A stretch of DNA of 64,000 nucleotides, taken from contig NZ_MRYI01000001.1 in NCBI RefSeq assembly GCF_002260525.1, forward strand, positions 558,001 through 622,000. Reading direction: 5' to 3'. The position numbers were made by a program, and so were the translations under genes. The stretch's first letter is position 1. Each line of letters begins with the position of its first letter. The notes below the pieces were generated by a model. It had not been told where the DNA came from. It was given only the letters and a program-made list of their open reading frames with translations, and made no database searches. This stretch comes from Hahella sp. CCB-MM4 (GTDB taxonomy: Bacteria; Pseudomonadota; Gammaproteobacteria; Pseudomonadales; Oleiphilaceae). Positions 10,908 to 24,968 of this stretch are shown piece by piece.

Positions 10908-11996
10908 TTACCTTGCCCAGCGAATAATCTCGTCAGAGATGCCGTTCAACGGTAACACCTGCCCCACCGCCCCCAGTTTGACAGCAGCTCCCGGCATCCC
11001 CCACACAACGCAGGATGCTTCGTCCTGGGCAATGGTCGAAGCACCCGTTTCCTTTAGCCTCAACATGGCTTCCGCACCGTCTTTCCCCATGCCGGTTAAC
11101 ATAACTCCCAAAGCATTTTTTCCAGCAGCTTTTGCAACAGAATCAAACAAAACGCCGACACTTGGTTTGTGGCGATTGACGAGGGGGCCGTCATTTAACT
11201 GGCAGACATATTTGGCTCCGGATCGGACCACCTCCAGATGCCGGTCACCTCGCGCGATATACACACGCCCGGTGGTAATTGGAGCGCCTTCATAGGCTTC
11301 TTCAACCTTTAGCGGTAACATTCTGTCCAGACGCTCGGCAAAGCTACGGGAGAACGCTCCGGGGATATGCTGGGCAACCACCACACCCGGCACGGAAGTC
11401 GGCAAGCCAATCAGCACATCACGAATGGCATCCAGCCCGCCTGTTGACGCTCCTATTGCTATCAGTTTGTCTGTGGTGGCAAAGGTCGGCTGTGCAAAGG
11501 TATCCTGCCGTTTTTCACGCTGCTGCAACTTCTGCAACTGCTGTTGTTTTCTTAACAGCTTGTCTTTGGAGACCGTCGCAGCCATGCGAATCTTCTCAAT
11601 AATGACGGCGGCTTTTTCCTCAATGCCTTCCTTGAGATCCAGTCTTGGCTTGGTAATAAAATCAATCGCACCGGTTTCAAGGGCATCAAGCGTCACCTGC
11701 GCCCCCTGATCAGTAAGGCTGGAAATCATCACCACAGGCATAGGGCGCAGGCGCATAAGATTGCGCAGGAATGTAATACCGTCCATTCTTGGCATTTCCA
11801 CATCCAGAGTCAGCACATCCGGATTACACTGCTTGATCTTTTCCCTTGCCTGATACGGATCCACCGCCGTGTCCACGACTTCCAGGTCCGGTGCCTGGTT
11901 AATAATCTCTGTCAATATTCTGCGCATCAGGGCGGAATCATCCACCACCAGTACTTTATATCGGTGATCAGGTGTTTTATCTCTGAAATCGGGCAT
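10908..11996 (-). CDS. cheB: Chemotaxis protein-glutamate methylesterase/deamidase CheB
   Basis: A 362-residue CheB that removes methyl groups from, and deamidates, chemoreceptor glutamates, giving adaptation. The receiver domain (13-130) has acidic pair D19/D20, acceptor D65 and K116. A Gln/Lys-rich linker (145-165) leads to the methylesterase domain with catalytic Ser in GASTGG, His in AQHIPG and Asp in GMGKDG. It is the last gene of the operon, 40 bp after cheD, and a hairpin follows. Confidence 0.96.
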   Translation of the reverse strand: MPDFRDKTPDHRYKVLVVDDSALMRRILTEIINQAPDLEVVDTAVDPYQAREKIKQCNPDVLTLDVEMPRMDGITFLRNLMRLRPMPVVMISSLTDQGAQVTLDALETGAIDFITKPRLDLKEGIEEKAAVIIEKIRMAATVSKDKLLRKQQQLQKLQQREKRQDTFAQPTFATTDKLIAIGASTGGLDAIRDVLIGLPTSVPGVVVAQHIPGAFSRSFAERLDRMLPLKVEEAYEGAPITTGRVYIARGDRHLEVVRSGAKYVCQLNDGPLVNRHKPSVGVLFDSVAKAAGKNALGVMLTGMGKDGAEAMLRLKETGASTIAQDEASCVVWGMPGAAVKLGAVGQVLPLNGISDEIIRWAR

Positions 11997-12036: not shown

Positions 12037-12663
12037 CTAAAACAGATCCACATCTCCCACCTCGACAGGATGTTCTTTCAACGTATCCATATACTGTGTC
12101 TCACGTTTAAGCAGCGTGTCATTGTGCAGAGACTCAATACGCTTGAGCAGCACCTTTCCCGTTTTTGGGTCATACAAAATTTTGCGTGGATGGTCTCCCC
12201 CCAAGTCTTCAGCGGATATTCTGAAACCCTCAACCTCCAGGTAGTTACGGACAAACTGAATGTTCTTGTCGCCCACACTTCCCATTCCCCGAATGACATT
12301 ACCTCCCCCAAACACCTTAAATTCCAGCCTGTCCCGGTTGCCGCACAACTTCATGACATCGTTGATCAGGTGTTCCATGGCAAAGTTGCCATAGCGATAG
12401 GCATCACTGATAACATTGACATTGCCCTGGGAATTCTGTGGCAGCATAAAATGATTCATCCCTCCAATCCCGGTTTTGGGATCACGAACACAAGCAGCGA
12501 CACATGAGCCAAGTACCGTGCCGATCATTTCATTTTCCAGGGTCACGTAGTACTCGCCGGGCATGATTTTGGCTACATATAGCTTACGGTGAGGATCCCA
12601 GAAACGATTAACATCCTTGAACCAGGGTAAACAGGTCGGAGGTAAATGCTGTTTAGAGGACAC
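12037..12663 (-). CDS. cheD: Chemoreceptor glutamine deamidase CheD
   Basis: A 208-residue CheD, which deamidates receptor glutamines. The catalytic Cys is in VLGSCVAAC and the active-site His in GGMNHFMLP. It lies 10 bp after cheR and 40 bp before cheB, the usual order in accessory chemosensory operons such as cluster II of Pseudomonas aeruginosa. The N-terminal 30 residues are specific to this long form. Confidence 0.94.
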   Translation of the reverse strand: MSSKQHLPPTCLPWFKDVNRFWDPHRKLYVAKIMPGEYYVTLENEMIGTVLGSCVAACVRDPKTGIGGMNHFMLPQNSQGNVNVISDAYRYGNFAMEHLINDVMKLCGNRDRLEFKVFGGGNVIRGMGSVGDKNIQFVRNYLEVEGFRISAEDLGGDHPRKILYDPKTGKVLLKRIESLHNDTLLKRETQYMDTLKEHPVEVGDVDLF

Positions 12664-12673
12664 GACAAAAACC

Positions 12674-13507
12674 TCAGACTCTCGCGTATATCGTATTGCC
12701 TATCGAGCGAAACTGCTCTGAAATGCCGTGCAACGATTCGGAGTGCCCCAGAATCAGATAGCCGTCATTGGATAGACAACCCGCAAATTTTCGCACAAGA
12801 TCCGTTTTTGTGTTCCGGTCAAAATAAATCACGACGTTGCGACAGAAAATCACATCGAAAGTTTTTTTAAATCCAAAATCACGTATCAGATTTAACTGCT
12901 CAAATCGGATATTCTTCTTAAGCTCCGACGAGACCTTGGCATAACCTTCATTGCTACCTTTGCCCTTCAGAAACCACCTCTTTTTTATATTCATCGGTAT
13001 GTTTTTGACCCGTTCCAGTTGGTATACCCCCTGACGTGCCTGTCCCAGAACCTCCGTATCGATATCCGTGGCCAGAATCTCCCAGGTAAAATTATACTCT
13101 TGGGCGGCCTCAGCCAATGTCATGGCTATGGAGTAGGTCTCCTCCCCGATAGAGCATCCGGCGGACCAGATGGAGATCCTGCGCTGGTTTCTTTCCATCA
13201 ATGCAGGAATCACCTGGTTACTGAGAAACTGAAAGTGGTGATTTTCACGGAAAAAGGAGGTCAGGTTGGTCGTTAGCGCATTTATAAAATGGGTGAACTC
13301 CGTTTCCTTGTTCTTTTTTAGATAATCCACATAGTCGTCAAAGCTGGTGAGGCGTAATTGACGTAATCGTTTTGTCAGACGGGAATAGAACATTTCATAC
13401 TTATTGTCTGCGACCACAATCCCAGAGTAGTCCTGGCTGAGCCGACGAAAATACTCGAAGTGCTCCCGGGTAAAGTGAAAGTCCCGATCCTGCATTGCCG
13501 TACTCAT
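12674..13507 (-). CDS. cheR: Chemotaxis protein methyltransferase CheR
   Basis: A 277-residue S-adenosylmethionine-dependent methyltransferase that methylates receptor glutamates. It has an N-terminal helical domain (1-85) and a Rossmann domain with SIWSAGCSIGEETYSIA as the SAM loop, plus FCRNVVIYFD near the C-terminus. AGGGA precedes the ATG. It follows a STAS gene by 14 bp and precedes cheD by 10 bp. Confidence 0.96.
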   Translation of the reverse strand: MSTAMQDRDFHFTREHFEYFRRLSQDYSGIVVADNKYEMFYSRLTKRLRQLRLTSFDDYVDYLKKNKETEFTHFINALTTNLTSFFRENHHFQFLSNQVIPALMERNQRRISIWSAGCSIGEETYSIAMTLAEAAQEYNFTWEILATDIDTEVLGQARQGVYQLERVKNIPMNIKKRWFLKGKGSNEGYAKVSSELKKNIRFEQLNLIRDFGFKKTFDVIFCRNVVIYFDRNTKTDLVRKFAGCLSNDGYLILGHSESLHGISEQFRSIGNTIYARV

Positions 13508-13521
13508 CTATCGTCCCTGTA

Positions 13522-13800
13522 TCAGATCACGATGGTATCTTCCAGCCCCACCACTTTGATGGCCTGTTTCAATACCTCACTTCCAGCTTTCCAGTCCAGC
13601 AGACCTCCACCGGCTTCCAGTCGACGCTGGGCCGCCAGGAGCAATTGCACTCCAGCCGTGTCGACCACCTCCACATTGCTGGCATCCAAAACGAGTTTCT
13701 TCTCAAACTCCTTCGCCTTCAGTTGCTCATGCAAAGCTTCAATGTTGGCAATTGTGAGATTCGCGGGGAGTTTCAGTGGTGTGTTTTTGCTCCGGCTCAT
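13522..13800 (-). CDS. STAS-domain protein (anti-sigma-antagonist-like)
   Basis: A 92-residue single-domain STAS protein of the SpoIIAA/MlaB-like type. The phosphorylation-site region reads VVDTAGVQLLL, with Thr where SpoIIAA-like antagonists often have Ser. It overlaps the end of the upstream cheW by an ATGA junction, so translation is coupled. STAS genes at this place recur in accessory chemosensory operons, but the role is not established. It could be a target of the kinase domain encoded at 20277-21944 or an array scaffold component. Confidence 0.85.
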   Translation of the reverse strand: MSRSKNTPLKLPANLTIANIEALHEQLKAKEFEKKLVLDASNVEVVDTAGVQLLLAAQRRLEAGGGLLDWKAGSEVLKQAIKVVGLEDTIVI

Positions 13801-14342
13801 TGATCCGTTGCCTCTATCACTTTGGAAAACGTTTCTGGATCCAGCAGTGAATCCACATCAATTAACAGCACCATACCCTCTTCGGTCTTGACCAGTCCTC
13901 GCAGATATCGGGTATCAAGCTTGGAACCTAACTCCGGTTTTGCCTTAATTTCCTCGGGCTTGATATCAAGAACATCCGCAACCCGGTCTACAACCATCCC
14001 AACCACATGTTCCTGTTGATGATCATTTCCAGTTTGTTGATCACCTTCTTTAGACCGGGCAGTGGCGGCCTGCATGATGGATACAAGAATCACGACGGTC
14101 TCCCTACTGTAGTTGACGCCCCCCAGAGAGAACTTCATACGCAGGTCCACAATTGGTACGATGCCGCCCCGAAACTCGATAACCCCTTTTATGTATTTGG
14201 GAACGTTGAGAATTTCCCTGGGTTTGCTCCAGCCACGAATTTCACGCACTCTGAGAATGTCCAATGCATAGGCATCCTCGCCCATCCAGAATGTGAGAAA
14301 CTGGGATGAGCGCTCGTCTTTGACTCCCCGATCCGGCCTCAT
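13797..14342 (-). CDS. cheW: Chemotaxis coupling protein CheW (second copy)
   Basis: A 181-residue CheW that links receptors to CheA. The core contains LTFWMGEDAYALDILRVREI and the conserved GVIEFRGGIVPIVDLR, and a central insertion of about 20 polar residues lengthens it beyond the usual 150-165. The ATG at 14342 overlaps the mcp stop codon (TGATG) and has GGGAGG seven bases upstream, so it is preferred over a TTG 15 bases earlier. Confidence 0.94.
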   Translation of the reverse strand: MRPDRGVKDERSSQFLTFWMGEDAYALDILRVREIRGWSKPREILNVPKYIKGVIEFRGGIVPIVDLRMKFSLGGVNYSRETVVILVSIMQAATARSKEGDQQTGNDHQQEHVVGMVVDRVADVLDIKPEEIKAKPELGSKLDTRYLRGLVKTEEGMVLLIDVDSLLDPETFSKVIEATDQ

Positions 14343-17059
14343 CAGAATACCTCCCAATCGTCTTCGCCAGATTCCGGCGAGGCAGACTTGGCCGCTGCGC
14401 TGGTCATTTTATCCTTGCTGTTGCCCTTCGGTTTTGGTGCACTCGTCGCTGCAGTACTCCGGGGCAGATTGGCGCGGGAGGGAACCGAAATACTCATATC
14501 TCCGCTGGCCTGAAAGAACGACATGACCTGGACCATCTGGCCGACGCTGTCCAGGGAGGATTCCGCAGAGGAAGCGGTCTCTTCCGCCAAAGCAGCGTTT
14601 TGCTGGGTGATTTCATCCAGCTCTGAAATGGCTCTGTTAATCTGGTCTATGCCGGAGCTCTGCTCTTCTGTAGCTGCGGCAATATCGGAAATCAGGTCAG
14701 ACACCTTCTTCACGTTGGCAATGATATCGTCCAATGTGGTACCAGATTCATTCACCAGATCAGAGCCTGCCTGGACTTTCTTCACACTGTCTTCAATCAA
14801 TTCCTTGATTTCCTTGGCAGAGGTCGCACTGCGCTGGGCCAGATTACGAACTTCCGTGGCCACCACCGCAAAGCCGCGTCCCTGTTCACCCGCCCTGGCG
14901 GCTTCCACAGAAGCATTCAAGGCGAGCAGATTGGTTTGAAAAGCAATGTCGTCGATAACACTGATAATCTCAGCAATCTTGCGACTGGATTCATTGATCT
15001 CCGCCATGGAAGATACGGTACGCTTAATAACCTCCCCTCCTTTGCTGGCAGAATCCCTGGACAGATTAGACAGCTGGTCCGCCTGGCGGGAATTATCAGC
15101 CGTGTTGCGCACGTTGCTGGCGAGCTCTTCCATACTGGATGCGGTTTCTTCCAGGCTGGAACTCTGTTTTTCGGTTCTCTCCGATAGCTGATTGTTGCCC
15201 GTCGAAATTTCCTGATTTGCGGCACGTACGCTTTCCGTGGAAGTCAGCAATTGATTGACAATGCCATTAAGCCGCTCGACGCTTCCGTTAACTGAGTTGG
15301 CGATATTGGCGTATTGACCGTCATAGTCAGTGTCCATACGTCCGCTAAGATCTCCTTTAGACATTTTGCTGACCACATCACCAATATCTTCCAACACATC
15401 ATCCACCACCTGGACGAATTCGTTCAGTCCTTCCGCAAGCTTAAGGAAAAATCCTTCCTTGCCTTCCATGGGCAGGCGTTCCTTGAGGTCGCCCTGACGG
15501 GCCGCCAGCACCAGCTTTTCCACCTCACTTTCAGCTTTCACTTGGTCGGTGACATCACGCCACTCCACCACGAAGCCGAGGATGTTGTCCTTACTGTCCC
15601 TGATCGCGCCGGCGGTCAGATCAAAATGGCTTCCGCCCAATACCAGACTGGCGTCATGGGGCGCTTTCAATTGGGTCAGCAATTGGCGTTGATGAGCAGG
15701 ATTCTTATGGAAGAAATCGATATTCTGTCCCATCAGCTCATCAGCATTGAACTGGGGAAGACGCTTGCGAATCTCATTCTCAGCAGCTTTCAGCACTCTG
15801 GTAACCGAGGGGTTCATGTACACAATGTTAAAATTCTCATCTGCCACCATCAGTGCTGTGGAGGTCGTTTCTATGGCTTGCTGCAAGCGGGTCATTTCAA
15901 CCTCAGCACGGCGCTCCTGAGTCACATTTCTCCATTCCACTACGTATCCAAGGATACTGTTGTTCTGATCACGGATAGCACCGGCGGTCAGGTCAAATAA
16001 GGTATCACCAAGTGACAGACTCGCATCATAAGGGGTGGTGAGGCTCTGGAGTAACTGCCGCTGATGGGCCGGGTTCTTATGGAAGAAATCAATGTTCTGA
16101 CCCAGCAGCTTGTCAGCATCAAATTGAGGGACTCTCTTGCGAATTTCACTCTGCGCATCTTTCAATGTTCTGGTGACCGCAGGATTCATATACACAATAT
16201 TGAATTCTTCATCAGCCACCATGATGGCTGAGGCAGTGGTTTCGATGGCTTGCTTCAGGCGGGTCATTTCGATCATTTGAACCCGATCTCGCTCATCCTG
16301 CGCTTTTAGCTGATCCCGCAATTCCCTGATGGAACCGAACACACCCTGTCCTTCGCCAAGCTCCTGGTTGTAGTTCCCCGCGGTCAGTTCACCGGCAATA
16401 CGCGACAACATTGCCGGCTCAGCTCCCAAGGTACTCATCAGCTTCCGTCCAAACGCAAACAGAATGCCGACTCCCAGAAGTATGCCGATGATCGTCACTG
16501 TCACAACCGTGACCAATTCTGAGTTCACATCGGCCTTCACGTCGCTGGAAATTCCTCTGTAGGTCTCCAGTACGGTATCCCCCAGGACTGCCAGAGAAAC
16601 TTCCAGATCTTCAAAACTCTGGTTAAAAGCTTCAAGTCTGTTTAGGGCTTCCCCGTAGGTCCGACTATTCATTACAGCTTCTGAAGACCGCATGAACATC
16701 TTGAGATCAGGTTCAGTCTTTTGAACAAGTCCGGTTAATTTCTCTGAAATCACCGATTCAGAAACCAGGCGATAATCCTCCGTTATTTTTTCTTTGTGCT
16801 CACTAAAGACATCTTTAGCGTCCGCCTGCATCTGCTGATCATTTGTCTGTAAAGCCAGCAGATATTGGTACACACTGCCCCTAACGCCATCGTGGCGCAT
16901 ATCCATGTCGCCGGTGTACCTCAACTGTTTCACGGATCGTTCCATGCGTATTTCATTTTCATGGACAACACTGGTCTGACTGTACAGACTGACCAGAATT
17001 ATCAGAAAAATCACAACAAATAGAGTCCCTACCAGTAACAATGAGCGTTTGACTGTCAT
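14342..17059 (-). CDS. Chemoreceptor with tandem duplicated PAS domains
   Basis: A 905-residue methyl-accepting protein. Membrane segments are at about 5-25 and 180-203, with a periplasmic four-helix-like region between. Two near-identical PAS units of 124 residues follow (about 265-388 and 389-512), each with [17 protein letters not shown], then a HAMP-like region and the signalling domain with [20 protein letters not shown]. The C-terminus is a Pro/Ser/Lys-rich linker ending in DDWEVF, a WxxF-type tether expected to bind CheR. The gene lies between two cheW genes and is the main receptor of the operon. The PAS ligand (heme, FAD or other) is not visible from sequence. Confidence 0.94.
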
Positions 17060-17139: not shown

Positions 17140-17643
17140 TTATTCCGCTTCTTCCCTTATGCCCAGGGCCTTGACCAGGTCCAGCATGATGATCATGCGT
17201 CCTGAATATTCCACCACCCCTTGGGCAAACTGGGTGGATTTCCGTTTCTTTAACTGTGGAGCAGGTTGGATTGAAGAGATTGGAAATCGAACGACATCCG
17301 TCAGTTCGTCTACCACCACTCCCTGTATTTTTTCCCGTCCAAGTTCGCGAACGTTGAACATGATGACAACGGTATGCTTGTCATAGTCATGCGTCTTTAA
17401 ACCTATCCTTTTGCGCAGGTCGATAATTGGAACGATGGCCCCCCGAACATTCACTAACCCACATTCCCAGGATTGGGCATGAGGCACTCGGGTGACCGGT
17501 TCCCATGCCCGGATTTCCTTTACTCTCATGATCGGAACGGCATATTCCTCACGCTCGAGACTGAAAGTCAGATACTCACTATCCTGTTCAGCCATGTCTC
17601 CAGACGTTTGTCCGGCACTGGCTGTATCATCCAACTTGGGCAT
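17140..17643 (-). CDS. cheW: Chemotaxis coupling protein CheW (first copy)
   Basis: A 167-residue CheW with core YLTFSLEREEYAVPIMRVKE and LVNVRGAIVPIIDLRKRIG. The ATG at 17643 has GAGG six bases upstream and lies inside the last 17 bases of cheA, so translation is coupled; a longer N-terminus reading further into cheA is less likely. With the second copy at 13797-14342 the operon has two distinct couplers, one possibly specific for the PAS receptor. Confidence 0.94.
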   Translation of the reverse strand: MPKLDDTASAGQTSGDMAEQDSEYLTFSLEREEYAVPIMRVKEIRAWEPVTRVPHAQSWECGLVNVRGAIVPIIDLRKRIGLKTHDYDKHTVVIMFNVRELGREKIQGVVVDELTDVVRFPISSIQPAPQLKKRKSTQFAQGVVEYSGRMIIMLDLVKALGIREEAE

Positions 17644-19723
17644 AGGTTTCCTCTGTCTCTTTTTGAAGCATTGCCAGGCCCCCGACATCAAGAATCAATG
17701 CCACCCGTCCATCCCCCAGGATGGTCGCCCCGGATACGCCCTGCACTGAGTGATAGTTGTCTTCGAGTGACTTGATCACAATCTGCTGCTGGCTGGAGAG
17801 ATCATCGACAAACAAACCGAAACGCCGGTTGTCATGTTCGACAATGACGACAATTCCGTTTTCCAGTGCAGAGACATCATGACCCGCCGGGGCATCCAGC
17901 GCTTCGGTGAGCCGCAAGACCGGCAGGTACTGCCCTCTGAGTTTGATCGCTTCTCCGGTACCGGTGACCTTGTGCACCATTTCCGGATAAGGCTGAAGAG
18001 ATTCGATAATGGAGACGAGTGGAATGACATAGATCTCCTCTCCGATATTGACCAGCTGGCCGTCCATGATGGCGAGTGTCAGGGGGAGTCGAATCACAAA
18101 CCGGGTGCCTTTGCCCAGGGTGGAATCCACGTGAATGCTGCCTCCCAGGCTCTGAACATTACGTTTGACCACATCCATGCCGACGCCTCTTCCAGACAGA
18201 TCACTGGCCTGCTCCTTGGTAGAAAACCCTGGTAGGAAGATCAGCTCGAATGCCTGCTGATCATTGAAAATGGTTTCTTCCGATATCAAACCTTTTTTCT
18301 TGGCTTTATCGAGTAGTTTTGCAGGATCCAGTCCTTTTCCATCGTCCTCCACTTCGATCACGATATTGCCTACTTGGTGATAGGCTCGGAGCCAGACGGT
18401 ACCGTGCTCCGGCTTCCCGTTACCTACCCGTTCCTCCACCGTCTCGATACCGTGATCGACGCTGTTGCGGACTAAATGAACCAAGGGATCTGTAATTTTT
18501 TCGATAACGGTTTTATCGACCTCGGTGGATTCACCGCTCATGACCAGCTCGATGTCCTTGGATAACTGCCGGCTCAAGTCTCTTACCATTCTCGGAAATC
18601 GGCTGAAACAGAAAGAGATAGGCAACATGCGGATCTGCATGACACCTTCTTGCAGCGCCCGTGTTTGTCGATGAAGTTGCATCAAGCCCTGCTGCAAACG
18701 CTCCATTCCCTGAAGCGCTTCATCTTCACTGAGAAGATTCAGCATGGATTGTGTGATCACCAGCTCCCCGACCATGTTGATCAAAGCATCCACTTTGCCC
18801 AGGTCGACTCTGATGGACTGACTCTCCGTCGATGACGTCGCTGTTGATTTCGCCGTTGGCGCTTTCTTCGGGGAAATGTCCTGGACTGGTTCCGGGGTGC
18901 TGATGGCAGGTTCTAACACTTCCTGCGACGGGGACGGCGAATCTTTTTTCTCTTCGGCTACCTTTGAGTTTGTTTCGAGTATCGGCGCGCTTGTTTCAAG
19001 TATCGGCACCAATGCCAGATCGCATTCATCTTCGACCCAGGCAAATATATCGTCAATGACCGCCCGCTCCACCGGGGCTTTCAGATTCAAAGTCCAGCCC
19101 AGATAACTGTTGAGGGGCTCATATAATTCCCACTCGGGCATCTGCGCCGTATCGCAGATTACTTCTAGCGGACCATGTTCTCCCAGCTCCCGAATCAAGC
19201 GTAACGGGTCGTTACCGCGAAGCATCATCTCCTTATGCGGTGTAAATACGATTCGCCAGCCAATCAGCACGTCCTCATCCGTCTGTGTGGCAGACGAAGC
19301 ATCAGCGGGAGCTTCGGGTGAAGGAGCGGCGCTTCCTCCTGACATGATCAGTTCCAGGGGGTGCAGGTAATCTTGCAATACCTGCACATCCATCTGTTCA
19401 CCCTTCTTTGCAAAGGTCAACAGATGTCTCAATGCGTCGACGGATCCCAATAATACATCGACAATGTCCTGGCTGATCGATCGCTTTCCAGCCCGAATGT
19501 CATCCAGGAGATTTTCCATGACATGCGTGTAGGCCGCGACCTGTTGAAAGCCGAACGTCGCACTACCTCCTTTGATGGAGTGCGCTGCGCGGAATATTGT
19601 ATTGATCGCCTCAGAATCAACAGCAGTAACGTCCAGATTCAGCAGACCTGATTCAATTTCAGTGACAGCTTCATCACTCTCTTCAAAGAAGACACTGTGA
19701 AAACGGGTAACATCAACACTCAT
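17627..19723 (-). CDS. cheA: Chemotaxis histidine kinase CheA
   Basis: A 698-residue CheA. The N-terminal HPt domain carries the phosphorylated His48 in RAAHSIKGG. The following domain is P2-like but unusual. A long Pro/Ser/Glu-rich linker (about 240-305) contains a near-repeat of ILETSAP. Dimerisation, HATPase (HLVRNSVDHGIE, GKGLDPAKL, GRGVGMDVV) and CheW-like regulatory domains follow. It probably passes phosphate to the adjacent CheY and CheB, and perhaps to the REC domain encoded at 20277-21944. GGAG precedes the ATG. Confidence 0.96.
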   Translation of the reverse strand: MSVDVTRFHSVFFEESDEAVTEIESGLLNLDVTAVDSEAINTIFRAAHSIKGGSATFGFQQVAAYTHVMENLLDDIRAGKRSISQDIVDVLLGSVDALRHLLTFAKKGEQMDVQVLQDYLHPLELIMSGGSAAPSPEAPADASSATQTDEDVLIGWRIVFTPHKEMMLRGNDPLRLIRELGEHGPLEVICDTAQMPEWELYEPLNSYLGWTLNLKAPVERAVIDDIFAWVEDECDLALVPILETSAPILETNSKVAEEKKDSPSPSQEVLEPAISTPEPVQDISPKKAPTAKSTATSSTESQSIRVDLGKVDALINMVGELVITQSMLNLLSEDEALQGMERLQQGLMQLHRQTRALQEGVMQIRMLPISFCFSRFPRMVRDLSRQLSKDIELVMSGESTEVDKTVIEKITDPLVHLVRNSVDHGIETVEERVGNGKPEHGTVWLRAYHQVGNIVIEVEDDGKGLDPAKLLDKAKKKGLISEETIFNDQQAFELIFLPGFSTKEQASDLSGRGVGMDVVKRNVQSLGGSIHVDSTLGKGTRFVIRLPLTLAIMDGQLVNIGEEIYVIPLVSIIESLQPYPEMVHKVTGTGEAIKLRGQYLPVLRLTEALDAPAGHDVSALENGIVVIVEHDNRRFGLFVDDLSSQQQIVIKSLEDNYHSVQGVSGATILGDGRVALILDVGGLAMLQKETEETYAQVG

Positions 19724-19772: not shown

Positions 19773-20135
19773 TCAGCCCAAAACTTTTTTGATAGTGGAG
19801 ACCAACTGGTCCGGATTAAAAGGTTTCACAATCCAGCCGGTAGCCCCGGCGGCTTTACCCTCACTTTTTTTGTCTGCTCCGGATTCGGTGGTCAGCATCA
19901 ATAACGGAGTAAACTTATAACTGGCTTCGGCACGCAGATTTTTAATCAACGTAATCCCATCCATGACCGGCATGTTAACGTCAGTAATCACCAGGTCGTA
20001 TTTGTTGGATTTGGCCTTTCCCAAAGCCTCCTGACCATTGGATGCCTCATCCACCTGATACCCTGCACCTTTCAGGGTAAACGCGACCATCTGACGCATG
20101 GAGGCGGAATCATCCACTGCAAGAATCTTAGCCAT
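19773..20135 (-). CDS. cheY: Chemotaxis response regulator CheY
   Basis: A 120-residue single-domain receiver with acidic pair D8/D9, phospho-acceptor D52 in VITDVNMP, the conserved Thr in MLTTESG and Lys in WIVKPF. AAGGGGAG lies just upstream of the ATG. It precedes cheA by 49 bp. As an operon CheY it may act as a phosphate sink or bind a non-flagellar target. Confidence 0.94.
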   Translation of the reverse strand: MAKILAVDDSASMRQMVAFTLKGAGYQVDEASNGQEALGKAKSNKYDLVITDVNMPVMDGITLIKNLRAEASYKFTPLLMLTTESGADKKSEGKAAGATGWIVKPFNPDQLVSTIKKVLG

Positions 20136-20276: not shown

Positions 20277-21944
20277 TCAGCTATTCAGATCAATGACGGC
20301 TCTGACATGATGATCACCTGTATTAAATTTCAGTTCTCTGCAGATAGCCTTCACCATGGGTAACCCTCTCCCGAAAGCATCATCACTGTCTTCCAGATCA
20401 AGATTCAGCGGAGATATGCCTTGGCCACTATCAGATACCTCGACGCATAGAGACATAGGTAACTGGCTGCTGATCGTCAGCTCCATACGCACCCAGCCAT
20501 CCTTCAAGTCCTGTAAAAGTCTCTGCCGATTTTTGTAATATTTTTCGAATCCGCCTTCCTCACTCTTCACGTCTGAAAACAAATTCAGAACACCATGATC
20601 AACCGCATTGTTGAACAGCTCAGCAATCACCATAAATACAACTTCTTTTTCTGGACGTATCGCCATATGCTGACTTAACCACTGCCTGACAATCATGAGA
20701 GGATCACTGGTGCGCAATTGGGTAGGCCACCACGAAAACTCTAGCGAAACTGAAGGTAAACCGATGTCCACCAGTGGATTGATATTATCCACTTCTTCTC
20801 CATCATCTGCGGCGATTCCCTTTTCCATGCAGGTGATTTCGATCAGAGACAGGTCATCCTGAAGATCGGAATTGAACTCGTATACGGCTTGCAGCATGGC
20901 ATCCAATATCCGGCCCTGGCTGTGCTGAACGACAGAAATCACCCCTTCCTCGCCAAACATTTCGCCGTCCGCATTGCTGCACTCAGTGACCCCATCGGTA
21001 TAGAACAGCAATCGATTATCGCCATTAAGTGACAGAATTTCAGTATCAGCTTCAAACTCGTCGTCCCCCATAATGCCGAGTGGCATATGGGTCGACTTGA
21101 TAGATCGACGTACCTCGTTGCCTTCGATCAGGAACGCATCAGGCAACCCTCCACACCAGATTTCAATGCGGTTTCTGGCCTGATTGATTTCTCCCACAGT
21201 GGCACAAAAAAACATCGAGCCGGGCAAAAAACGCTTCAGGATCTGATTTAACTCCCTAACAATTTCGCCCACCGACAAATTTCGCCGACTCATGGTTCGA
21301 AATGCCTGGGTAACCGGAATGGAGCCGATAGAGGCGGTCAACCCATGACCGGTAAAGTCACCGATGAGAAAATAGGCTCCGCCATCCCATTTGTCCTGTA
21401 GCAACACCAGATCACCGCTAAAGAAAGAGGCGGCGGTACAATGCATATCAATCCCGGGAACATCCGTCGCATTGGCCTTTTGCGCAGCCTCCATCAGGTG
21501 ACGGGTCATGTCATATTCGCTGTGGACACGCGAACGAAAGTATTCCAGTTCCTTGTTCTGCATCAGCACCTGACGGTTCAGGTTGAGAGTTCGTTCATGG
21601 GCCTGAATTTTTGCTCGAAGAATATTGAAATTGATCGGTTTGACCAGGAAATCATCGCCGACTTCCAGACTTTGAACCAACTCCTCCTCATCAGAAAGAG
21701 CCGTTAAAAAAATAATAGGGACATGTTCTCCAGGCTGCTCCTCCTTGATTGCCCGAGCGGCCGTGTAGCCATCCATGACCGGCATCAGCATATCCATTAG
21801 AATCAGGTCTGGCTTGGTATCGCGCCAGATTTCCAGGGCCTGGGCTCCGTTCTCTGCGACATGGCAGACATGCCCGAAGTCTTCCAACTCCATTACCAGC
21901 AGTTGGCGGCAGAATTCCTCATCCTCTGCAATCAGTATTTCCAT
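20277..21944 (-). CDS. Response regulator with PP2C phosphatase and anti-sigma-type kinase domains (HsbR-like)
   Basis: A 555-residue regulator. The receiver (1-120) has acceptor D51 in LMDMLMP. A SpoIIE-type PP2C phosphatase domain (about 160-380) has SGDLVLLQD, FLIGDFTGHG and FYTDGVTECS. A C-terminal GHKL kinase domain (about 420-555) has ELFNNAVDHG, VSDSGQGIS and GRGLPMV. This is the architecture of HsbR, which phosphorylates or dephosphorylates the STAS protein HsbA in Pseudomonas, and an adjacent STAS gene (22027-22329) fits. The ATG at 21944, with GGGAAA-type purines upstream, is chosen because the region before it is intergenic-like. The phosphodonor is probably CheA or a distant HptB-like protein. 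Confidence 0.88.
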   Translation of the reverse strand: MEILIAEDEEFCRQLLVMELEDFGHVCHVAENGAQALEIWRDTKPDLILMDMLMPVMDGYTAARAIKEEQPGEHVPIIFLTALSDEEELVQSLEVGDDFLVKPINFNILRAKIQAHERTLNLNRQVLMQNKELEYFRSRVHSEYDMTRHLMEAAQKANATDVPGIDMHCTAASFFSGDLVLLQDKWDGGAYFLIGDFTGHGLTASIGSIPVTQAFRTMSRRNLSVGEIVRELNQILKRFLPGSMFFCATVGEINQARNRIEIWCGGLPDAFLIEGNEVRRSIKSTHMPLGIMGDDEFEADTEILSLNGDNRLLFYTDGVTECSNADGEMFGEEGVISVVQHSQGRILDAMLQAVYEFNSDLQDDLSLIEITCMEKGIAADDGEEVDNINPLVDIGLPSVSLEFSWWPTQLRTSDPLMIVRQWLSQHMAIRPEKEVVFMVIAELFNNAVDHGVLNLFSDVKSEEGGFEKYYKNRQRLLQDLKDGWVRMELTISSQLPMSLCVEVSDSGQGISPLNLDLEDSDDAFGRGLPMVKAICRELKFNTGDHHVRAVIDLNS

Positions 21945-22026
21945 GCCCCGTTTCCCTTTTTTTTCAGGAGACTGAAAACTAGTTATCAGGCGATTGAAAC
22001 CCGTGTCGGGTGATTGAAAATAAATG

Positions 22027-22329
22027 TCAGGAAATTGAGAATTTCTTATCGAATCTCGAAATCTCAAAGATCTTCTTGATACCAGGTGAACAATTCACAA
22101 TGCTTATCTGCGCCGTATCGCCACCAAGAAATGTTCGCATATTGAGCAGCATTCCCAGCGCAGAGCTGTCTATGTGCTCGGTCTGCCGCAAATCAACAAC
22201 AAACTCCGCATCCTTGTTCTTTGATTCATAGGAGCTACGGAATTGAGATATCTGGCTGAAATCAAATCTTCCACGAATATCGATGGTGACTTTCCTGCCG
22301 TCCGATGAAGCCCGGGACTCAATCGTCAT
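22027..22329 (-). CDS. STAS-domain anti-sigma factor antagonist (HsbA-like)
   Basis: A 100-residue STAS protein with the phosphorylation loop HIDSSALGMLLNM, containing the Ser expected to be modified by the partner GHKL kinase. It lies 82 bp upstream of the PP2C/kinase regulator gene, matching HsbA/HsbR gene pairing. Dephosphorylated HsbA-type proteins bind FlgM, and other states bind a diguanylate cyclase in Pseudomonas; the target here is unknown. Confidence 0.86.
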   Translation of the reverse strand: MTIESRASSDGRKVTIDIRGRFDFSQISQFRSSYESKNKDAEFVVDLRQTEHIDSSALGMLLNMRTFLGGDTAQISIVNCSPGIKKIFEISRFDKKFSIS

Positions 22330-22385: not shown

Positions 22386-23591
22386 CTAAAACAATTCGAT
22401 ATCATCGCCGCTTGCTTTTGCACGGTCCGATCCATGTATGCCCATATCAACATTCATCATCGTCTGCATTTGCTGTTGTAAGCGTTCATAATCCTGGATG
22501 GTCAGGCTCTTGCCTTTGGATAACTCTTGTAAAATGTTATGCACACTGTGGATTAGTTCCATCCTTCTCGTCAGCCTGCTGCATGCCTGCGTTGCGATAT
22601 CGCCAAACTGAAAACCCTGGACACTGGTATCCACCAAACGCTTAATCTGCGTGGAAAGCTCAACCATGTGCGCGACCGCTTCATTGATTTCCACATTGAT
22701 TTCGGAGCGCTCCTGAATCATCTGCTCTACATACCCCCTTCCGTTGAGGGCTTCTTTCATATCCAGAGAGGCCACGTCTCCAACGATTTCCCGGACTTTA
22801 CTGATCGCGTTTTTGGTTTCACTGGCCTTGCCTTTAATCTGGGTATTCAGTTCACTGGAGCCACGGGACAGCCGACGCACCTCATCAGCGACAACGGCAA
22901 ACCCTCTGCCCGCCTCACCCGCCCTGGCCGCTTCGATTGCAGCATTGAGCGCCAGAAGGTCCGTCTGATCCGCAATTTCCTGGATATTACCTAGCAAAGC
23001 GAACATTTGATCGAGCTGTCCCACCATGTCCTCAATTCGATGCACGGCGTTAACGCTCTTCTCCGAGACATTCACAAGAAGATCAACATAGGTACCGATA
23101 ATTCGGTCTAAAGATTCAGCAAACTCTTCCATCGAAAGCCTCTGTTGAGGCGTATCCTTTCCAGCTTTAGCCTTGTCCTTGTTGTCCCCTTTTACTCTCG
23201 CGAGAACTTCAAACGCCAACTCGCTCTGCTGCTTGGAACTGTCACTGAGTTCAACAAAAGAGTGGCTAAGCGTTTCTATATTGCTGGAAATAATATTGTT
23301 CAACTCTTCGGATGAACTTCGCACTTCATCTATGGAACTTTCGCAATAGTCTGAAATGTTGTGGGTTAACTTCTTACGTTCGTGATCAAGAGATAATTCC
23401 TGTGAAGTCGCTTCCTCACTTTGATCTGAAGGGCGAAAAAACCAGGTGGAAGCTATGGCAAGTGCCGTCGAAACGGAAAAAGTCCAGGTAGCAATAGATG
23501 AGGGAAGAAACCACGATATGAGCACGACAAGTACGGAAAGTGCAATCAGGATTCCCCCTCCCCTTCCTTTGTTGGACGTACCTTCATTCAT
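22386..23591 (-). CDS. Short membrane-anchored methyl-accepting chemotaxis protein
   Basis: A chemoreceptor of about 401 residues with two adjacent membrane helices near the N-terminus (about 14-55) and almost no periplasmic domain. A signalling domain with [20 protein letters not shown] follows. The C-terminus ends GDDIELF, similar in charge to the DDWEVF tail of the large receptor but without Trp. The ATG at 23591 has AAGG eight bases upstream; an ATG at 23609 lacks one. It is the first gene of the chemosensory operon. It probably senses an internal or membrane state. Confidence 0.88.
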
Positions 23592-23792
23592 ATCTTCAAC
23601 CTTAAGCATAATGCTATCGAAAAATGACTGGGGGCTGATTCATCCTGCACTAAAAAACTATAGCTCAAAATTCCCGACTGCAAAGCTAGGCTATTTCTTT
23701 TACCCGAAAAAATGGCAAAAGGGACTGTCTTGGTAATTCACCCAGGTTGATCTACGCTAAGTTCAAGGCATAAAGGAACCAGGAGCAGCCTA

Positions 23793-24968
23793 ATGGGAAC
23801 ACCATACGAAATTGGATTGTGTGGAGAACTCTCCGGGAAAACACAACACGCATGCAGTGCCACACTACATTTTACGGTATGCGACGGGGAACAGATTGCT
23901 GCCAGAGTCGGAGCATCCCCTCCACTGGATGCCCTATTGCTGTGCCAACCGCTCACTCATCAGGAACAACTAGCCATTCTGCAACAGATCACAGAACTGG
24001 AGCTGGATGAGACACCGCCTTGTCTGGTATGTCTGGAAGCGCCTGACGCCAACACCATGATGAGCTTCCTGGACGCCGGTGCCGATGATGTTCTGGATAC
24101 AGACAGTTCCAGCAAAAAATTAGTCACTCGCATTCATAAGGCTGTTCTTAACCGGATTGCCAACCGGCAATTAAAATCGCAGCTCAGGTTGGCGAACGAA
24201 GTTGCCATGAGTGCGATGACCGATACCAGCGACCTGGGTAACAACATCCAGTTTCTGCTGGAGGTCAATCATTGCGATAACTTTGATCAGCTTGGACAGT
24301 TGCTGTTTCAGGCACTTGATTATTATGGTCTGAATTGCAGCCTGCAGATTCGCGGCCGCTTTGAAACAAAAAATATGGAGCGCAGCGGTATCGCAAGGGA
24401 GCTGGAAACCCAGCTGTTAACTCACTTTTCCACCGGCTCAAGATTCCATCAGTCAGGGAAAAGGCTATTCTGCAACTACGGCCATATTTCCCTGCTGATC
24501 AAGAACATGCCGATAGAAGATGAAATACGTTGCGGCAAGATCAGAGACAATATATTTGCCCTGTTGCAGGGCTCCGATGCCAGAATAAGAGCACTTGATG
24601 ACGCACTGGAAGTGGAACTCAGAATGCAGGTACTACAAGATCTTTCCAGACGCATGCTAACGGCTCTGACCGATCTGGAAGAGAGCTACATGGTGATCAC
24701 CAATGAGATCGTGACCGTTACCGAGTACACCAATGAACAAATCACCGATGCATTACATTACCTCGGACTGACGGAAAACCAGGAGCAGGCGATCTGCGAT
24801 ATCATGCACGACCTGATTACCAACACTAACAGGGTCTTTAATCAGGGATTAGCCATCAACCAGCAACACCGGGAATATTTCGAGCAAATTGAAGGCGCTA
24901 TTGCACCTTCCGCCCCGGGACAGACCGATTCTTTCGCACAATTACAAGCCTTGCTCGCAGCCACCTGA
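23793..24968 (+). CDS. Orphan receiver-like protein of unknown function
   Basis: A 391-residue soluble protein. The first 130 residues look like a degenerate receiver (FLDAGADDVLDTD resembles the REC beta4-beta5 region) without a clear phospho-acceptor. Residues 145-265 form an alpha/beta domain beginning MTDTSDLGNNIQFLLEVNH, and the C-terminal 100 residues are helical. This layout is seen in uncharacterised gammaproteobacterial response regulators. AGGAG precedes the ATG. It diverges from the chemosensory operon, which suggests a link to that pathway. No enzymatic motif is visible. Confidence 0.7.
   Translation: MGTPYEIGLCGELSGKTQHACSATLHFTVCDGEQIAARVGASPPLDALLLCQPLTHQEQLAILQQITELELDETPPCLVCLEAPDANTMMSFLDAGADDVLDTDSSSKKLVTRIHKAVLNRIANRQLKSQLRLANEVAMSAMTDTSDLGNNIQFLLEVNHCDNFDQLGQLLFQALDYYGLNCSLQIRGRFETKNMERSGIARELETQLLTHFSTGSRFHQSGKRLFCNYGHISLLIKNMPIEDEIRCGKIRDNIFALLQGSDARIRALDDALEVELRMQVLQDLSRRMLTALTDLEESYMVITNEIVTVTEYTNEQITDALHYLGLTENQEQAICDIMHDLITNTNRVFNQGLAINQQHREYFEQIEGAIAPSAPGQTDSFAQLQALLAAT

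Follow-up and report, generated by a model that had tools for sequence, protein, structure and literature searches.

What does a partner switch encoded inside a chemosensory operon respond to, and what does it control? The question is raised by a run of minus-strand genes in the 64,000-nucleotide stretch of Hahella sp. CCB-MM4 DNA analyzed here, referred to below as the window. According to the original prediction, one such run has genes for a REC-PP2C-GHKL regulator and a STAS antagonist, flanked by a short-receptor gene and by cheY-cheA, and gene order and Pfam domains agree with this. The run, from 23609 down to 10908, extends past the genes then named to include cheW, a PAS-PAS MCP receptor, a second cheW, a second STAS gene (STAS2), cheR, cheD, and cheB:

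22386..23609, minus strand: short McpA-like receptor, 407 aa (Pfam MCPsignal; size class, position, and C-terminus)
22027..22329, minus strand: STAS anti-sigma factor antagonist of the CrsA/HsbA type with a DSSALG phosphosite (Pfam STAS)
20277..21944, minus strand: REC-PP2C-GHKL regulator of the CrsR type, 555 aa (Pfam REC, SpoIIE/PP2C, and HATPase_c_2)
19773..20135, minus strand: cheY (Pfam, single REC)
17627..19723, minus strand: cheA (Pfam Hpt (P1), H-kinase_dim, HATPase_c, and CheW)
17140..17643, minus strand: first cheW (Pfam)
14342..17059, minus strand: Aer2-like PAS-PAS MCP receptor, 905 aa (two PAS, HAMP, and MCP domains)
13797..14342, minus strand: second cheW (Pfam)
13522..13800, minus strand: STAS2, the second STAS protein, with DTAG replacing DSS (Pfam STAS)
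12674..13507, minus strand: cheR (Pfam CheR and CheR_N)
12037..12663, minus strand: cheD (Pfam CheD)
10908..11996, minus strand: cheB (Pfam CheB_methylest and REC)

The 141 bases separating the regulator from cheY are free of terminator-like sites on the minus strand, and their folding is no better than that of their own shuffles, falling below most of them; the idea of a terminator or an RNA structure at this point was rejected. The open frame of the regulator (20277–22067) begins at a TTG within the STAS gene, and its likely start is the ATG at 21944, downstream of a purine-rich stretch. The STAS/regulator gap contains, at 21964–22041 on the minus strand, four imperfect copies of TTTTCAATCNCCTGA with a spacing of 20 to 22 bases, the first of which overlaps the 3′ end of the STAS gene; in the closest relative (locus L214), this gap has only 18 bases.

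Pfam matches and residue alignment show a regulator with intact catalytic residues. E7, D8, D51, T81, and K102 of the receiver are all present, D196, D363, and D364 of PP2C and N446, DSGQG, and GRG of GHKL are conserved, and every PP2C and GHKL residue that is invariant in ten aligned relatives is retained. The adjoining STAS antagonist has a phosphorylatable serine in its DSSALG motif, and DSS occurs in 159 of 167 surveyed STAS genes of the partner-switch kind. STAS2 reads DTAG where partner-switch STAS proteins have DSS. Since the phosphosite pattern is unmatched in 14 of the 28 surveyed STAS2 genes, STAS2 may have a function other than that of the partner-switch STAS proteins.

The pair had been described as HsbR/HsbA-like. 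What it shares with Pseudomonas HsbA–HsbR–HptB is the domain layout of regulator and antagonist, but it is not the HsbR/HsbA pair of this genome, which is found with HptB on contig C118. Two genes in the genome match the regulator across PP2C, GHKL, and REC, the other 89 matches covering the receiver and at most also the linker. The second copy, on C118, is 35% identical to the window regulator and stands in the order STAS–HsbR–HptB–FliK within a flagellar cluster; a CheA gene adjoining CheZ lies about 16 kb away. By contrast, the window operon contains neither HptB nor flagellar genes, and its regulator lies in a different clade: in a FastTree phylogeny, the C118 HsbR falls inside a 60-row clade with 59 HptB-linked members (SH-like support of 99), and the window regulator falls outside it. 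The latter groups with kin of the same genus or family and four Vibrio loci (8 rows, SH-like support of 96, long branches being present). In each of the seven searched genomes of the window's genus there are two regulator matches, the first close to the window gene and the second at 33 to 35%. Because the genome has a separate STAS–HsbR–HptB set and the window protein lies outside the HptB-linked clade, we rejected the identification of the window pair as HsbR/HsbA.

Clusters closer to this layout are described in two papers. Stage 1 and stage 2 F7 clusters contain an McpA-like receptor, an anti-sigma antagonist, and a serine phosphatase, and their function is there called unclear (PMC7184735). 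Stage 1 has the order anti-sigma antagonist, cheY, cheA, two cheW, aer2, cheR, cheD, cheB, mcpA, a second antagonist, and serine phosphatase; in stage 2, to which Shewanella oneidensis belongs, the last three genes have moved up to lead the cluster, which has lost its first antagonist and one of its cheW genes (PMC7184735). The S. oneidensis che1 cluster, SO_2117 (McpA) to SO_2126, with cheA1 at SO_2121, cheW1 at SO_2122, and aer2 at SO_2123, is reported as a single transcription unit containing CrsR/CrsA, and Che1 is proposed to act on RpoS (PMC9855816). SO_2118 to SO_2120 are left over between these genes, and from this and the gene order of stage 2 we infer that they encode CrsA, CrsR, and CheY1. 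The predicted integration of a partner switch into a chemosensory operon is thus present, as judged by gene order and domains, but had already been published, both for CrsR/CrsA in che1 and for F7 stages 1 and 2 (PMC9855816, PMC7184735). The window has a further member of this layout. The best explanation, to which we assign a probability of roughly 60%, is an F7-type chemosensory operon with a CrsR/CrsA-type partner switch as its output.

With che1, the window shares the REC-PP2C-GHKL regulator, the STAS antagonist, the McpA-like receptor, cheY, cheA, cheW, the Aer2-like receptor, cheR, cheD, and cheB; in both, the receptor–STAS–regulator triad stands at the front, and a second chemotaxis CheA and RpoS are encoded elsewhere in the genome. 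The likeness to CrsR is one of gene content, order, and domains, drawn from the published description. The window differs in having a second cheW and a second STAS gene between the receptor and cheR and in its Aer2-like receptor, which has a pair of hydrophobic segments and, by prediction, a periplasmic part. With stage 1, as published for Vibrio cholerae, it shares two STAS genes, two cheW, the McpA-like receptor, and the serine phosphatase, but the triad is at the 3′ end there and at the front here, with the second STAS gene adjoining cheR. The window's CheA–CheB–CheR set did not group with Vibrio, although the regulator does so at 96% SH-like support.

The F7 class of the window operon is an assignment from gene content and the Aer2-like receptor. 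The front triad of stage 2 is present, and the extra STAS gene and the cheW that stage 2 has lost are both kept (13522–13800 and 13797–14342). The cluster is therefore mainly stage 2 with two stage 1 features, and it may be intermediate between the two stages. The latter reading rests on gene order, since the CheA–CheB–CheR tree put the window among operons of like gene content without resolving its place there; use of that tree for setting the window between the stages was dropped. The same gene order is found in the nearest relative, L214, the sequence of which ends after STAS2, and two other loci (L209 and L210) have STAS2 ahead of cheR and the triad at the back.

The 407-residue receptor has a single hydrophobic stretch (residues 14–44) followed by an MCP signaling domain and ends in DDIELF, without the aromatic CheR-tether residue. 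McpA-like receptors are described as lacking this residue (PMC7184735); the label is used here on the basis of size, position, and C-terminus. A receptor of the same size class lies directly upstream of the STAS–regulator pair at 47 of the 180 regulators surveyed. In one congener (L215, genome G210), the McpA-like receptor is split over two neighboring open frames, through a frameshift or a sequencing error.

We call the 905-residue receptor Aer2-like only, because its match to the Vibrio Aer2 NCBIfam model, over residues 330–905, scores 686 bits against an equivalog cut-off of 1200. Both of its PAS domains align with 3vol and 4hi4, which are heme PAS structures of Aer2, and both domains keep the His of FHKNPAHQR and the Trp that follows; which His in this stretch is the heme ligand is our assumption. 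The conserved His and Trp serve heme coordination and oxygen stabilization (PMC9855816), and the cluster is probably oxygen-sensing. Two hydrophobic segments (residues 1–33 and 177–209) flank a stretch of about 145 residues that is, for this reason, predicted to be periplasmic, and in this the receptor differs from the Aer2-like receptors described in PMC7184735. In a crude scan, exactly two such segments were found in 12 of the 38 large MCPs of che-linked loci, the window included. The C-terminal pentapeptide, DWEVF, conforms to the pattern published for the CheR tether, x-[HFYW]-x(2)-[HFYW] (PMC7184735).

Conservation of the neighborhood across gammaproteobacteria, which had been proposed as a check, was assessed in an even sample of 369 genomes. 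A regulator match at E ≤ 1e-50 was found in 93 of these, and 79 near-full-length genes in 72 genomes were kept; the CheD set consisted of the 150 matches listed, and draft contigs lower the linkage counts further. Among the CheD matches listed, there is one no more than 10 kb away from at least 30 of the 79 regulators, far above the approximately 0.4 expected by chance for 4-Mb genomes. On the same basis, CheD occurs in at least 121 of the 369 genomes, the regulator in 72, and both in at least 58 (Fisher p = 7e-21, kinship ignored); 49 of the 79 regulators have no listed CheD within 10 kb, and 14 of the 72 regulator-bearing genomes have none at all.

To describe the neighborhoods, loci were fetched as best matches with CheD-linked ones first, so that counts over the resulting 180 regulators are not population frequencies. 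Genes were labeled with HMMs built from BLAST matches to the window genome's own genes, counting che genes on the regulator strand only and within the limits set by contig ends; a separate scan for che genes around triads covered both strands. At least three che genes lie nearby on the same strand for 54 of the 180 regulators, 26 with an McpA-like receptor, 15 with HptB, and 13 with neither. A che operon thus adjoins the STAS–regulator pair in two settings, with the receptor and with HptB, and this recurrent linkage of the partner switch points to sigma-factor control. All but one of the 15 HptB cases are in flagellar clusters, and the regulators of most of them belong to a clade other than that of the receptor-linked ones. 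In six loci (L076, L077, L079, L090, L157, and L220), an STAS2-cheY-cheA-cheW-cheR-cheD-cheB operon sits in the flagellar cluster between fliJ and STAS–regulator–HptB. No title reporting this HptB-linked che arrangement was found among the literature on HsbR (best 15 of 200) or on McpA with chemosensory systems. A 27th receptor case is L190, where the triad abuts, back to back, a complete STAS2-cheY-to-cheB operon carried by the opposite strand.

For 20 receptor–STAS–regulator triads, both strands of the fetched stretch are free of CheA, B, D, R, and W genes, and for 16 of these the stretch reaches 7 kb or more to either side (L056–L058, L063, L097, L098, L101, L122, L125, L133, L175, L217, L218, L231, L239, and L241; in L231, a lone CheY-like gene follows), from which it follows that the triad needs no local cheA. 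The triad could accordingly be an independent module, wired to the F6 array (the CheA on C118) or to its receptor by direct binding, with its place beside F7 being a matter of history. We consider this improbable, although the genome does encode a second CheA, beside CheZ, and published accounts have McpA-like receptors clustering with F6 CheA in Shewanella (PMC9855816) and F7 arrays managing without such receptors (PMC7184735). McpA-like receptors are said always to neighbor an F7 cluster (PMC7534058); the 20 triads above show none in the stretch fetched. Against independence, CheD was present in all 20 of the 33 examined genomes that have a receptor match (E ≤ 1e-25; weak in G021 and G062), with CheD found in 10 of the 13 genomes that have none, and 28 of the 54 che-linked regulators have no such receptor directly upstream. 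In G098 (contigs C5 and C7), cheD has the McpA-like receptor next to it and the STAS–regulator pair is on its own, an arrangement that looks like an exchange of partners relative to three congeners and that also speaks against a self-contained module.

If the F7 operon does feed the switch, its CheA is the obvious candidate for the phosphodonor of the regulator's REC domain: the window receiver is intact, and a complete CheA is encoded in the same operon. Direct transfer from CheA, as originally predicted, seems to us somewhat probable. No title or abstract found in the literature dealt with phosphotransfer from CheA1 to CrsR in Shewanella. At helix-1 positions 11, 12, 15, 18, and 19, which we take to be kinase contacts, che-linked receivers have no likeness to either CheY (29 rows) or CheB (52 rows) from operons of this kind, so that sequence lends direct transfer no support; with neither a CheY-like nor a CheB-like signature, these interface residues were abandoned as a test of a shared CheA. 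Phosphorylation of the receiver is not universal, since two of the 26 receptor- and che-linked receivers lack the phospho-Asp (L209 with Asn and L213 with Gly); these two are pseudo-receivers within chemosensory operons.

The other donor to be weighed is an Hpt protein supplied by hybrid kinases, either HptB or a different one, which would phosphorylate both the window REC and HsbR, leaving the che genes as mere neighbors. The search for HptB elsewhere in the genome, suggested with the original prediction, did find an intact copy, the genome having 26 Hpt matches in all; this HptB adjoins its own HsbR, which counts against a role in the window, but it is a possible donor for both regulators. 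The che-linked receivers resemble generic receivers rather than CheY, with Asn at position 12 in about 70 to 75%, two loci (L188 and L189) have a downstream Hpt gene besides receptor and che genes, and REC-HisKA (L233 and L239) and REC-Hpt-EAL (L230) genes lie beside che-less triads. A regulator directly flanked by both HptB and the receptor occurs only once in 180 cases versus 16.4 expected (Fisher p = 2e-9 over all rows), but merging similar regulators weakens the effect, with p = 0.0006 at 60% identity, 0.02 at 50%, and 0.6 at 45%. As tree-independent pairs gave too few informative cases, the mutual exclusion of McpA and HptB was not retained as a rule. At position 12, the window receiver carries Cys, whereas Asp is found there in 95% of the receivers that are HptB-linked and lack che genes. 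Asp12 was nevertheless rejected as an HptB signature, because the HptB-linked L191, L192, L194, and L240 have Asn, and it looks like a clade marker. Taken with both kinds of evidence, an Hpt donor appears unlikely to us.

Kinases beside the che-less triads were also considered as general donors and set aside, since most of the ten scanned neighbors are unrelated (ABC ATPases, an FtsX-type permease, a nucleotidase, threonine synthase, a tRNA synthetase, and a PHP domain protein). A 2709-residue open frame at G000:C1:395335-403404 has eight Hpt matches, a weak H-kinase_dim match, and one receiver, and in this resembles a ChpA-type kinase.

Returning to the F7 operon with a CrsR/CrsA-type output, its mechanism can be sketched by inference from Shewanella and Pseudomonas, where the workings of CrsR/CrsA and HsbR/HsbA are described (PMC6482189). 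The Aer2-like receptor, responding to oxygen or redox state and perhaps to a periplasmic signal too, would set the activity of CheA, which would phosphorylate CheY, CheB, and the regulator REC. The state of REC would choose between phosphorylation of the STAS serine by GHKL and its dephosphorylation by PP2C, and dephosphorylated STAS would bind GHKL, causing it to release RpoS. The McpA-like receptor may be an extra input, possibly through the F6 array; the S. oneidensis counterpart is reported to signal to the F6 CheA, not Che1 (PMC9855816).

A partner switch of this kind frees the stress sigma factor RpoS in Shewanella (PMC9855816, PMC6482189), and the window genome has an RpoS gene with a match over the cut-off. 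We regard RpoS as a reasonably likely target of the switch. Pseudomonas offers a different precedent: HsbA binds FlgM and HsbD in P. aeruginosa (PMC6482189), and the switch might likewise act on FlgM/FliA or a diguanylate cyclase, given that the genome encodes FlgM and has a sigma-70 gene at the usual place of FliA in the flagellar cluster. That cluster, however, already has a dedicated STAS–HsbR–HptB set for those targets, and CrsA/CrsR, in the papers cited here the one pair from a chemosensory operon for which a function is described, acts on RpoS, so we give this alternative little credence.

The E. coli chemotaxis system descends from stage 1/2 F7 arrays, the function of which is stated to be unclear (PMC7184735), and the cluster described here helps to make the question of what such clusters control testable. 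A broader proposal, which we offer tentatively and do not expect to hold, is that the ancestral output of F7 arrays was sigma-factor partner switching in general, the array feeding the STAS–regulator pair through interchangeable couplers, an McpA-like receptor or HptB. If so, the window genome would run both kinds of module, receptor-coupled and HptB-coupled, side by side. With one CheA-linked and one HptB-linked copy, the genome in any case lends itself to asking which receiver is supplied by which phosphodonor. Next to the operon, at 23793–24968, lies a divergent gene for a 391-residue protein with a weakly receiver-like N-terminus and no Pfam match, which among the surveyed loci occurs only in the same-genus L214 (78%) and L215 (44%).
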